Translations under genes and position numbers: made by a program | In this document: in pieces, positions 59,534 through 64,000 of the stretch | Layout: each line of letters starts with the position of its first letter | Position numbering within the stretch: the stretch's first letter is position 1 | Notes under the pieces: generated by a model | Database searches by the model: none | The model's input: only the letters and a program-made list of their open reading frames with translations | Told to the model about the DNA's origin: nothing | Origin: Desulfobacterales bacterium | GTDB lineage: Bacteria; Desulfobacterota; Desulfobacteria; Desulfobacterales; SpSt-501 | Direction of reading: 5' to 3' | Assembly (NCBI GenBank): GCA_030834695.1 | Contig: JAUQXK010000051.1 | Location: forward strand, 1 to 64,000 | Length of the DNA: 64,000 nucleotides

Positions 59534-60478
59534 CTATCCGGCGGATTTGGCCAGGCGAAAACCCAGCCCGGCGCCGAAATAATCCTCGGGGAACCCGAAG
59601 CGCCGGCTGCAGCGCGCACTCCAGGCGTCGAGGTTCCAGCTGCCGCCGCGGATGACACGATCCGATCCCTTCCGTTGAGCCGGTCGGTCCAGGCCGCGCC
59701 CGACGATGGCCCCGGGAACGTAGACGTCCTGGCACCACTCCCAGACGTTGCCGCTCATGTCGAACAGCCCCAGGCCGTTGGGCGCCTTGAGCCCGACCGG
59801 CCGGGTGGATCCTCCGCTGTTCTCGGAGTACCAGGCCAGGCCGTCGATGTGGTCTCCGCCGGCATAAAGCTCTTTCCGGCCGCCGCTGCGGGCGGCGAAT
59901 TCCCACTCGGCTTCGGTCGGCAGCCGAAACGGGGTTGCGCCGGGCGCTAGCTCATTCAACCGCTGGATGAATCCGGCCGCGTCCAGCCAGCTGACCTGCT
60001 CCACCGGGTGCGAATCCCCCTTGCGGAACATGGACGGGTTCTCCTCCATCACCTTCTCCCAGGCTCCCTGGGTCACGGGATGCCTGGCAAGATAGAAGCT
60101 TTCGATGCACACCTCCCGCAGCGGAGTTTCGTTGTCCCAGCCGTCGCCGTAGAGATCCCCCATTTGAAAAGTGCCGGCCGGAACCAGAACGAATTCCATG
60201 CCGGTGACCGGTTCGACGAATGCAACCGGTGTTTCCGTTTTCTCCGGCTCCGTTTTCCGACAGGCCGGGCATTCGGCTTGGCCGGGCGGCAGGCGCCGGC
60301 CGCAAACCGGGCACTTGAGGCGTTTTTCGCATTCCGGGCAGATTTTCCAGTTTTCTCTGACGTCGATCCCGCAGCCCGGACACGTCAGCCGACCGAGCGG
60401 CGCCTCGCAGGCCGGGCACACGTTCCATATCGTTTTCACGGCCTCACCGCAGACCGGGCAACTTGATCCTGTGTTCAC
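59534..60478 (-). CDS. Zinc-ribbon formylglycine-generating-enzyme-like (SUMF1) protein
   Basis: 314 residues from a GTG with AAGGG upstream. N-terminus (1-75): six CxxC knuckles (C7/C10, C21/C24, C33/C36, C47/C50, C56/C59, C70/C73), enough for three zinc ribbons. C-terminus (about 88-314): FGE-sulfatase domain (FVLVPAGTFQMGD, PVTQGAWEKVMEENPS, FRLPTEAEWEFAARSGG, GNVWEWCQDVY, RVIRGGSWN). The two active-site cysteines of true FGE are not both present (GGSWN...ARCSRR), so sulfatase activation is unlikely. Such proteins often serve as ligand-binding or kinase-associated modules. Confidence 0.9.
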   Translation of the reverse strand: MNTGSSCPVCGEAVKTIWNVCPACEAPLGRLTCPGCGIDVRENWKICPECEKRLKCPVCGRRLPPGQAECPACRKTEPEKTETPVAFVEPVTGMEFVLVPAGTFQMGDLYGDGWDNETPLREVCIESFYLARHPVTQGAWEKVMEENPSMFRKGDSHPVEQVSWLDAAGFIQRLNELAPGATPFRLPTEAEWEFAARSGGRKELYAGGDHIDGLAWYSENSGGSTRPVGLKAPNGLGLFDMSGNVWEWCQDVYVPGAIVGRGLDRPAQRKGSDRVIRGGSWNLDAWSARCSRRFGFPEDYFGAGLGFRLAKSAG

Positions 60479-60563: not shown

Positions 60564-61223
60564 TCAGCGCACCCGCAACCCGGCGATCTTGACCGCCCCG
60601 CGGTGATACCCGTCCGGAAACAAGGCCTCGAGCTCCCCGATCTCCAGGTCGTTGGCCTCACATGCCTCGGCCGCGGTCGGGACCTTGCCCGTCTTGTAGA
60701 AGGTGCTGCGCAGATAGCGGATGATCTGCCAGTGCATCTTGGTCAGCTTGCCACCCGGGATTTTCATTTCGAAGGCCCGATGGCCGGCGTAGTGCTCGTC
60801 CCATTCATCCGGGTCCACCAGGAATCCGCGCACGTCCACCCGATATTCCTGGCGCTGGGCAATGGCGTGCAGATCGACGGCGCTGTGCTCCAGGTAATCG
60901 GCCCCCAGGTAGGCCTCCTTGTAGCTGATGCCGGCCAGCTTGCAGGCCCCACGCATGTAGCCCTTGGGAAAGAGGCGCTTCAATTCGGCCCGGCGCAGGT
61001 TGATTTCACGGCAGGCCTCGAACACGTTGGGGCATTTCCCGGTTTTTTCGTATGCCTTGCGGATGTAGTTGATCACGTCCCAGTGCTCTTTGGTCAGCCC
61101 GTTCGGAATCCCAAGCTGGGGCGCTATCTGCTCGGCCAGCGCGGGCTCCCACTTCTTCGGGTCCACCAAAAAACCGTCCACATCGAGATCGAACTTTTTC
61201 TTGGGTTGCGTAGAAGTGCTCAT
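60564..61223 (-). CDS. Tandem DsrC/TusE-domain protein, copy 1
   Basis: 219 residues from ATG 61223 with AAAGGAGA upstream. Two DsrC/TusE folds in one chain: about 9-100 and 126-219, joined by YKEAYLGADYLEHSAVDLHA. Each has the family order (GFLVDP..W, LT..HW..I.Y.R..., GK.P....AC, LFP.GY.RGA.K.AG). DsrC uses two C-terminal cysteines for sulfur relay. Here domain 1 keeps the first (C94 in GACKLAG) but not the terminal one, and domain 2 has neither (GAVKIAGLRVR end). Normal DsrC is about 105-115 residues. A paralogue lies at 63354 on, with a CobW-type GTPase gene between. Confidence 0.93.
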   Translation of the reverse strand: MSTSTQPKKKFDLDVDGFLVDPKKWEPALAEQIAPQLGIPNGLTKEHWDVINYIRKAYEKTGKCPNVFEACREINLRRAELKRLFPKGYMRGACKLAGISYKEAYLGADYLEHSAVDLHAIAQRQEYRVDVRGFLVDPDEWDEHYAGHRAFEMKIPGGKLTKMHWQIIRYLRSTFYKTGKVPTAAEACEANDLEIGELEALFPDGYHRGAVKIAGLRVR

Positions 61224-61462
61224 GGGATCGTCTCCTTTCATCGCCGTTAGGAGTAACGTGATGCTGCATCTCCATATCCGTGAACATGCGCATCGAGCGT
61301 TGGCTTAAGTCGTTTCAGGACCATACAACCCCCGATGTAAAAAGACGCGCACCAATGCTTCTTGATGAAGAAAAAAAAGATTGGGATCCTCGAAATATCG
61401 CTCATCCCGGCCTTAAAAGTCCAGCGAAAAGTCGGACGGGAGGGCGCCGGTCCGGATAGCGC

Positions 61463-63337
61463 TTAGATCTCCGCAGATCGCAGGAGGCCCTCGACGCGCT
61501 GGAAGGTTTCCAGATCGGCGGTCTTGCCAATGATCGTCAGGAAACGCTCCGGGATCCGGGCTCCGGAAAAGCTGGAAAGCTCATAGCGGCCGGCGACGTA
61601 CTGGAAAAGTATGGTCTGCGGCGGGTCGGACACATCGACGATGCCCTTAATCCGGAAAATCGGTGCGGGAAAGCGGTCGACAACCTCGATAAACCGGCTA
61701 CGGTCCAGGGTGTGCGGAAGCCTGATGGTCCGAGCGCACAAACCATCCTGTGCATGGGTGGGGTGTACCTGTACCGGCATGGCCGCTGCGCCGGGCAATT
61801 CCTGCCGATCTCTCGAACTCGAACCGGTCTCAGCATCGAAGATCATGGCGGGATTCACGTCTCCCTGGCGGGCTACGCATACTGGGGCATTCGGGTTGAG
61901 CCGGGTCAATTGCCTCTGGACGTCATCCAGCTGGACTTCGTCGACCAGATCGCTCTTGTTTAGGATCAGGACGTCCGCAGCGGCGACCTGGTCGGCCGCG
62001 ATGGCGCAATCGGCCAGGCTCGACTGGAAATTAAGCGCATCCACCACGGTGACCGTGGCATCGAACCGGATCATCTCGGCCAGCTCGGCCATATCATCCA
62101 GCAGGTTTTTGGGGTTGGCCATCCCGGAGGTCTCCAGAATGACATAATCCGGCGAGAAGCTTTCCAGAATGCCCTGAATGGCGCGTTTGAGGTTGCCGAC
62201 CAGGCTGCAGCAGACGCAGCCCTCGTCGATTTCCGTGACCTTGTAGTCCAGCAGCTTGCCGTCGAGGCCGATCGCGCCGATCTCGTTCTGGATCACCGCT
62301 ACGAAGCGGCTGCGCTGGGTCTGGTACTCGATGAAGTGCTGCAGGAAGCTCGTTTTGCCGGAACCGAGAAAGCCCGTCAGAATGATGAGCGGCGGGCGGT
62401 CGTCCATGCCCAAGAGTTTCTTGTCGACGCTTTTGAAGTCCCGGAGCTGGTGGGCGCGCCACCAGAGCCTGTCCTGGTAGCTCCGGGGGGCGCTGTCCGA
62501 CCCGGAGGCGGTTCGCGCCGCCAGCGGCGCGCATTCCGTTGCCGTAACCGTTGAGCATAGAGCATCGAAGTCCCCAGCCCCGTAGCCCAGCGCCACGAGC
62601 CCGCTCCAGAGGTCCGGCGCCTCCTGGGTGGATATTGCGCCTGACCCGTCGTACACCGCTTGGGTCGCCGGGTATCTGCGTTCGACCAGACAAACCGGAG
62701 CCTGCTCGAGATTGAATGTCACGGAGGCGGCCAGCACGTCGAAGAAGCCGAGGGCGGTCTCGAAGGCGGGCAGATCCTGGTCGCAGCCGCCGGGAGCGAC
62801 CAGTTCCACCATCTGTCCGTCCCGCAGCATGCGCACGCCTTCGCGGGCCAGCGTGCGTTGGGAGGATACGCTTTGCATGACCAGCGCCAGCGCGTGCCGG
62901 TCCGGCCGGACGCAGAGCAGCAGGCTGCCGATTCCGAAAAGCTCGCACATTTCGGGGTGCTGCAAGAAATCGCGGACGCAGGGCCAATAATCCGCACTCT
63001 GGGTGAAGGCCGCCGCACGCAAGGAATACCGTTCAACAAGGGCCTCCGCCGGGTCGGGGAAATAGCACAGGCCGAAGAGGCCCGCGATCCATCCCGGCAG
63101 CGGTTCGACCCCCATGAAAAACAGGCCGAACACCCCGGAATTGCCCCTGATCTTGGCCGTCCAGCCTTCCACCGCCGCCGCGGACTGCTTCAGGCCGCGC
63201 CACCCGATGACATGGCGGACCGCAGGCAGAAACTGGGTGCGGATCAGGATCGACCGCATGATGGCCTGGAGCCCAGCGCCCGGATCCTGGTCAAAGTCGC
63301 CCTTGAAAAATGAGTTCAGGTTCACGTCCGGCGCCAC
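61463..63337 (-). CDS. CobW-type G3E GTPase fused to an unrecognised N-terminal domain
   Basis: 624 residues from a GTG at 63337 with GAGG upstream, 16 bases after the tandem DsrC stop. Residues 1-310: no family I recognise; soluble, with several cysteines (C91, C120, C131, C142, C185, C216) and FLQHPEMCELFGIGSLLLCVRP. Residues 316-624: G3E GTPase with Walker A GFLGSGKT (322-329), metal motif GCVCC (373-377), ETSG (402-405), base-recognition NKSD (460-463) and a C-terminal CobW domain. G3E proteins deliver metals to cofactors or enzymes. The fusion is twice the usual length. Sits between two tandem DsrC genes. Confidence 0.9.
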   Translation of the reverse strand: MAPDVNLNSFFKGDFDQDPGAGLQAIMRSILIRTQFLPAVRHVIGWRGLKQSAAAVEGWTAKIRGNSGVFGLFFMGVEPLPGWIAGLFGLCYFPDPAEALVERYSLRAAAFTQSADYWPCVRDFLQHPEMCELFGIGSLLLCVRPDRHALALVMQSVSSQRTLAREGVRMLRDGQMVELVAPGGCDQDLPAFETALGFFDVLAASVTFNLEQAPVCLVERRYPATQAVYDGSGAISTQEAPDLWSGLVALGYGAGDFDALCSTVTATECAPLAARTASGSDSAPRSYQDRLWWRAHQLRDFKSVDKKLLGMDDRPPLIILTGFLGSGKTSFLQHFIEYQTQRSRFVAVIQNEIGAIGLDGKLLDYKVTEIDEGCVCCSLVGNLKRAIQGILESFSPDYVILETSGMANPKNLLDDMAELAEMIRFDATVTVVDALNFQSSLADCAIAADQVAAADVLILNKSDLVDEVQLDDVQRQLTRLNPNAPVCVARQGDVNPAMIFDAETGSSSRDRQELPGAAAMPVQVHPTHAQDGLCARTIRLPHTLDRSRFIEVVDRFPAPIFRIKGIVDVSDPPQTILFQYVAGRYELSSFSGARIPERFLTIIGKTADLETFQRVEGLLRSAEI

Positions 63338-63353
63338 CGCTGCAAGGACCTCA

Positions 63354-64000
63354 TCAGCGCAACCGCAAACCGGCGATTTTTACGGCCCCGCGGTGGTAGC
63401 CGTCCGGAAACAGCGCTTCAAGCTCGTCGATTTCGATGGCATTCGCTTCACACGTTTCCGCGATGGTGGGAATCCGGCCCGCCTTGTAGTAACTGCTGCG
63501 CAAATAGCGGATGATCTTCCAATGCTGTACGGTCAGTTTTCCGCCCCGGATTTTCATGTCGTAGGCGCGGTGGGCGGCATAATGTTCGTCCCATTCATCG
63601 GGATCAACAAGGAAGCCCCTGACGTCCACCCGATACTCCTGGCGCTGGGTGACAGCGTGTAGATCCTTGGCGCTGTGTTCCATGTAGTCGGCGCCCATAT
63701 ACGCTTCCTTGTAGCTCATCCCCGCCATCTTGCAGGCGCCCCGCATATAGCCGGTCGGAAACAGCCGCTTGAGCACCTGACGGCCCAGCCGGCACTCCCG
63801 GCAGGTTTCGAAGATGGTGGGGCACTTGCCGCGCTCCCCGTAAAAGCGCCGGATGAAGCGAATCACATCCCAGTGTTCCTCGGTCAGCCCGGAGGAAATT
63901 TCGCACTCGCCCGCGAGGCCTTCGGCCAGATCGCGGTCCCATTTCGCCGGATTCAGCAGGAACCCGTCGGCGTCCAGCTCGAAAACTTTCCCCTTGTATT
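63354..64000 (-). CDS. Tandem DsrC/TusE-domain protein, copy 2, 5' end beyond window
   Basis: The frame continues to the window edge: upstream of the first ATG it reads FELDADGFLLNPAKWDRDL, then GLTEEHWDVIRFIRRFYG, which is the start of a DsrC domain. The visible part is 215 residues. Domain 1 ends with GYMRGACKMAG, linker YKEAYMGADYMEHSAKDLHA, and domain 2 ends GYHRGAVKIAGLRLR. It is a close paralogue of copy 1, with the same cysteine loss, plus extra cysteines in the first domain (KCPTIFETCRECRL). Probably the first gene of the operon, or preceded by more genes beyond base 64000. Confidence 0.92.
   Translation of the reverse strand, partial: YKGKVFELDADGFLLNPAKWDRDLAEGLAGECEISSGLTEEHWDVIRFIRRFYGERGKCPTIFETCRECRLGRQVLKRLFPTGYMRGACKMAGMSYKEAYMGADYMEHSAKDLHAVTQRQEYRVDVRGFLVDPDEWDEHYAAHRAYDMKIRGGKLTVQHWKIIRYLRSSYYKAGRIPTIAETCEANAIEIDELEALFPDGYHRGAVKIAGLRLR

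Follow-up and report, generated by a model that had tools for sequence, protein, structure and literature searches.

A conserved membrane protein, metallo-beta-lactamase and CobW GTPase cassette and its accompanying tandem DsrC proteins in a Desulfobacterales bacterium

The first 64,000 bases of contig JAUQXK010000051.1 (C128:1-64000, here the window) of the Desulfobacterales bacterium assembly GCA_030834695.1 (genome G000; contig of 69,924 bases in a genome of 5.65 Mb) end within a group of minus-strand genes that encode two paralogous proteins with duplicated DsrC domains (tandem DsrC; tDsrC1 and tDsrC2) on either side of a CobW-type GTPase fused to a long N-terminal domain, here termed the N-domain (Table 1). 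They are the last three genes, at the 3' end, of a putative operon that extends beyond base 64000 and comprises, from 5' to 3', p94, a membrane protein of 470 amino acids (aa), a metallo-beta-lactamase-fold (MBL) protein of 391 aa with a twin-arginine leader, p131, tDsrC1, the CobW fusion and tDsrC2. The complete tDsrC1 reading frame spans 63354-64013, and its first 13 bases, outside the window, were seen in the extended locus (L007). In this locus p94 is preceded by p145, which presents a weak NifX-type match, and by a divergent gene for a PAS/sigma-54 activator, while p94 and p131 return nothing above cut-off in Pfam or NCBIfam.

Table 1. Coordinates of the genes and domains at the 3' end of the putative operon and of the adjoining gene.
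Feature	Position	Strand	Basis
tDsrC2: two DsrC domains, 225 aa (219 aa from internal ATG), last gene of putative operon	60564..61241	-	ORF list, Pfam
N-domain::CobW GTPase fusion, 624 aa, GTG start	61463..63337	-	ORF list, Pfam, alignment, AlphaFold2
N-terminal domain, residues 1-307; no match in Pfam or the PDB	62417..63337	-	Pfam, PDB, AlphaFold2
CobW/G3E GTPase domain PF02492, residues 316-486	61880..62392	-	Pfam
CobW_C domain PF07683, residues 536-613	61499..61732	-	Pfam
tDsrC1: two DsrC domains, 219 aa; conserved C64, C71, C94, C188	63354..64000 in window	-	Pfam, alignment
Double zinc-ribbon and formylglycine-enzyme-like domain protein; adjoins cassette in genus	59534..60478	-	Pfam
ORF, open reading frame.

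A scan of a genome collection with the membrane protein returned 146 loci, and among the best 80 of these the MBL gene is present in 76, the CobW fusion in 70 and both in 68. The membrane protein, the MBL and the CobW fusion constitute a conserved unit that is linked across phyla, with representatives in the Desulfobacterota, the Rhodospirillales and other Alphaproteobacteria, Sutterella/Parasutterella, Malonomonas, Bilophila and others. Tandem DsrC, on the other hand, was found in one of the 80 loci (L093, genome G276). Two further features of cassette surroundings were noted. In some 10 of the 80 loci (e.g. L144, L145, L157, L159, L165), mainly of Desulfovibrio-like, Sutterella-like and Rhodospirillales origin, the CobW fusion is followed by genes for ExbB, ExbD and/or TonB, and by eye a distant cassette (L087, genome G272) stands beside larB-, larC- and larE-like genes (nickel-pincer cofactor).

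An initial sequence-only reading of the window had described an intact CobW GTPase with a GCVCC motif behind an N-terminal domain of some 310 residues, and this description holds. The GTPase domain matches PF02492 with an E value of 1.8e-43, and the motifs expected of a CobW/G3E protein are intact (GFLGSGKT at 322, GCVCC at 373 and NKSD at 460). Both the GCxCC motif and the fusion layout recur in all 62 aligned homologues, and the fusion would bind metal and hydrolyse GTP. The AlphaFold2 model presents a mean predicted local distance difference test score (pLDDT) of 88, most blocks of the N-domain exceeding 90, and its closest PDB fold match is E. coli YjiA (4ixm, E 7.9e-17); a Foldseek match to Tetrahymena Shulin, ranked fourth and spanning 569 columns, was set aside, its root-mean-square deviation being 20 angstroms. 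The fusion shares Walker A, NKxD, CxCC and CobW_C with the COG0523-type CobW/G3E GTPases, but it differs from them in the N-domain, which is almost exclusive to the cassette, and it scores far below the cut-offs of the CobW, ZigA and PRK11537 equivalogs. Comparison of residues 1-310 with Pfam, NCBIfam and the PDB sequences gave no match. The N-domain is present in 21 of 395 genomes of the phylum, including 19/19 of those with a strong membrane-protein match (Fisher p 2e-30, relatedness ignored); of the remaining two, G157 is cut at a contig end and G235 lacks a membrane-protein match. In distant versions of the cassette the N-domain occurs as a stand-alone protein of about 300-335 aa, so that it, and not the GTPase, is the constant element.

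The membrane protein has about 10 transmembrane segments (AlphaFold2 pLDDT 83.5) and presents no Pfam or NCBIfam family, no PDB sequence relative and no significant PDB fold match. An identity as NrfD/DsrP was rejected after comparison with the NrfD proteins of the same genome (hhalign probability 0.4), and matches to alternative complex III (E 0.05-0.15) are not significant. Its relatives outside the cassette include distant paralogues from seven genomes (L071-L077; alignment A9), likewise without a Pfam or NCBIfam family, that are about 70% identical to one another. These align to the 470-aa protein with an hhalign probability of 99.8 over 397 columns, but differ from it in sequence (22-25% identity) and in the lack of any MBL or CobW match within flanks of about 1.5 kb. 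In 7/7 loci the paralogues adjoin genes for acyl-CoA ligase, thiolase, acyl-CoA dehydrogenase or methylmalonyl-CoA mutase, for which reason organic-anion transport by the membrane protein is a reasonable guess, and no more. The MBL carries a twin-arginine leader in which R10 is invariant and R11 is conserved in more than 90% of sequences, and the HxHxDH metal motif is complete, with H194, H196, D198 and H199 invariant (n=24). Its nearest solved relatives are the hydrolases 7dck and 2p4z, which we take to represent the COG1237/Tflp group. It shares with them the HxHxDH, GC(C)H and GCNHCTG motifs, but differs in its leader, in an insert after the N-terminus (main group) and in its orphan membrane-protein neighbour.

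The same sequence-only reading had seen in the tandem proteins two paralogues, each with a double DsrC domain and with one of the four expected relay cysteines, and alignment bears this out. The two are 72% identical, PF04358 is matched twice in each (E 4.2e-41 and 9.5e-43) and the upstream cysteine of domain 1 (C94, in RGAC) is the one relay position retained. Solved relatives (1ji8, 1sau, 2v4j) likewise belong to the DsrC/TusE/DsvC relay family (PF04358, TIGR03342), in which the relay motif is CxxxxxxxxxxC in the C-terminal arm (PMC8190135). Tandem DsrC differs from this family in having two domains per chain, in lacking the relay cysteine of domain 2 (RGAC) and those of both terminal positions, and in forming a branch of its own. 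None of the C-termini of 28 tandem homologues carries the penultimate cysteine of TusE, and the score against the TusE equivalog PRK11508 is far below cut-off. A feature that had gone unmentioned is C188, in domain 2, which together with C94 is the only cysteine invariant in 28/28 tandem proteins, C64 (24/28) and C71 (23/28) being frequent.

The pair C94-C188 raises the prospect that tandem DsrC carries sulfur or electrons in a canonical-like manner, with C188 as its second thiol, and would feed an HdrB/DsrK-like enzyme. Apart from the invariance of the two residues, this is favored by the hydrogenase, iron-sulfur or NADH-dehydrogenase-type genes beside homologues found elsewhere (L046, L047, L196, L197, L203 and L205), and by the reported interaction of canonical DsrC with FlxABCD-HdrABC in Desulfovibrio vulgaris (PMC10504309). 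Nonetheless, we regard such a carrier as unlikely: many single DsrC that retain both relay cysteines have a cysteine at the C188 position as well, so that C188 may be structural, and no Hdr gene was seen beside the operon. In more general terms, tandem DsrC outside the cassette has nickel-iron (NiFe) hydrogenase, complex-I-like, iron-sulfur, NADH-dehydrogenase-type or adenosine 5'-phosphosulfate kinase genes in its neighborhood, which is suggestive at most of a redox role.

About 80 bases 5' of p94, at L007:12591-12605, is a perfect -24/-12 site (TGGCAC-N5-TTGC). A broader pattern allowing two mismatches shows no enrichment across the locus as a whole, but the placement of sites is informative: when the 1.1 kb preceding the membrane-protein gene was compared at 80 loci, a site with no more than one mismatch was present in 10/10 loci having an orthologous activator vs 9/70 loci without one. 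The operon is therefore putatively under sigma-54 control, a circumstance that bears on the alternative that the tandem proteins are DNA-binding regulators of their operon, acting through a winged-helix-like region while their cysteines sense sulfane sulfur or redox state. Domain 1 of tDsrC2 does match PF01726 (LexA_DNA_bind) above cut-off (27.5 vs 23.7 bits), and tandem DsrC, with its invariant cysteines, is encoded singly or in pairs in many different settings. The corresponding match in tDsrC1, however, falls under the cut-off and the operon already possesses a sigma-54 activator and a matching promoter, so that we consider a regulatory role of this kind rather improbable.

Full-length tandem DsrC occurs in 8/395 genomes of the phylum (the window's own counted) and in 17/292 of the order, mostly without the cassette. 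A tree, based on 109 columns only, was made from 15 single DsrC and the separated domains of 28 tandem proteins. One of its branches sets apart all first domains (support 62), another all second domains (96) and a third all single DsrC (99), which is consistent with tandem DsrC being a separate old family of one apparent origin. Cassette-linked copies cluster together (support 98 and 96). The copies of G531 and G552 are closer to tDsrC2 (78-80% identity) than to tDsrC1 (72-73%), and hence the two genes of the window are not a simple recent duplication. An assembly error was likewise rejected as the source of either architecture, because both recur independently: the tandem layout in 28 proteins, with the two copies here 28% different, and the fusion layout in 62.

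The sequence-only reading had placed DsrC proteins and GTPase in one operon. Their adjacency does recur, in G531, G568 and G552, of the same genus as the window genome, and in G276, but it is confined to that genus and this one other genome. Tandem DsrC lies between p131 and CobW in G000, G531 and G568 (the G531 and G568 loci being on short contigs) and before CobW in G276. In G531 and G552 CobW is split into two open reading frames, through either true fission or sequencing error. A tDsrC2-type gene after CobW was seen only in the window locus, being absent from L192, L193, L217 and L218. In L192 (G568), by eye, CobW is followed by a CGGC-domain-like protein and another MBL-fold protein, and L193 (G552) keeps p145, p131, tandem DsrC and the two-frame CobW but lacks p94, the membrane protein and the MBL, through deletion or misassembly. 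The double zinc-ribbon/formylglycine-enzyme-like gene lies directly 3' of CobW in L217 and L218 and after CobW in L193, although its membership of the operon is uncertain. As a three-gene set, then, the arrangement of the window is largely what the initial reading would have counted against itself, a rare form whose genes are not neighbors elsewhere, but this does not apply to the CobW fusion.

Such a distribution might mean that the tandem genes are passengers, duplicated or transferred copies inserted by chance and functionally unrelated to the cassette. Cassette and tandem DsrC coincide in 2/395 genomes (Fisher p 0.05), and the restriction of the second copy to the window points the same way. 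The place of the first copy relative to p131 and CobW is nevertheless kept within the genus, and in G276 it is conserved though DsrC and CobW identity falls to 56-68%; moreover, the gap of 16 bp between tDsrC1 and CobW is consistent with co-transcription. We therefore hold mere passengers to be a fairly unlikely explanation, and the pattern indicates that tandem DsrC joined the cassette in this genus and in one other genome.

The interpretation first put forward for the window, that the GTPase metallates or controls a sulfur-metabolism complex through tandem DsrC, has fared poorly. It draws on the presence of tandem DsrC on both sides of CobW here, on the adjacency in G531, G552, G568 and G276 and on the fact that the genome encodes DsrAB. 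Yet no dsr genes, dsrAB and dsrMKJOP included, were seen on the rest of the contig; dsrAB resides on contig C21, while C50 has a single DsrC-family gene of the two-cysteine type and C109 another single one. A DsrC-family match is missing from 12 of 20 further genomes with the cassette, in a search that detected its positive control in E. coli, and DsrA above cut-off is missing from 12 of the 20, so that the GTPase does not generally serve sulfur metabolism. In addition, G420 and G473, of the same genus, possess the cassette without tandem DsrC, and many genomes have tandem DsrC and no cassette: 13 of those from the order's remaining genera were tested, and all 13 lack the membrane protein. We consider this interpretation very unlikely. 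As to the single gene on C109 (L009), it is DsrC-like with only the terminal cysteine and is flanked, by eye, by molybdenum-hydroxylase-like and cysteine-desulfurase-like genes.

We favor instead, tentatively and at somewhat less than even chances, a reading in which the fusion matures the exported MBL of the cassette, while tandem DsrC serves this lineage as a thiol/redox accessory. The twin-arginine translocation (Tat) pathway exports folded proteins, so that the cytoplasm is where a metal-dependent MBL normally acquires its metal, and a member of a metal-chaperone GTPase family joined to a domain specific to the cassette would suit the part of a dedicated maturation factor. The cytoplasmic N-domain would recognise the MBL, or a membrane partner, and the G3E GTPase would put metal into the MBL ahead of export, after which the exported MBL and the membrane protein might cooperate at the membrane or in the periplasm, perhaps in organic-anion uptake or release. 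The tandem proteins, rather than being DsrAB trisulfide carriers, may be thiol/redox adaptors or sensors, given the absent terminal cysteine, the invariant C94 and C188 and the homologues near hydrogenase or iron-sulfur redox genes. Several observations weigh against this proposal. Distant cassettes carry the N-domain without the GTPase, and metal insertion thus cannot be the only role of the N-domain; the MBL lacks a linked CobW fusion in L142, L146, L153, L160 and L171, which implies that some cassettes do without the fusion or have it at another site in the genome; the G552 genome (87% complete) has tandem DsrC and a split CobW with no membrane-protein match and no MBL at the locus; and the redox role is argued solely from neighborhood and cysteine conservation. 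A bolder version, in which the orphan membrane protein, the Tat-exported MBL and the dedicated N-domain::CobW make up an undescribed and widely transferred periplasmic system, coupled in one lineage to tandem DsrC as a redox switch whose second cysteine has moved, seems to us doubtful, if possible.

In the open-access literature we found no paper naming both DsrC and CobW, although a description may exist elsewhere, and for tandem or fused DsrC one match only, a review that merely mentions DsrC-like proteins; the cassette and the tandem DsrC family thus appear to be undescribed there. The tandem proteins could reveal roles of DsrC-fold proteins outside sulfite reduction. The clients of CobW GTPases, on the other hand, are poorly known in general, and the cassette offers one specific candidate, the exported MBL-fold protein, with a linkage that makes the client-chaperone hypothesis directly testable.

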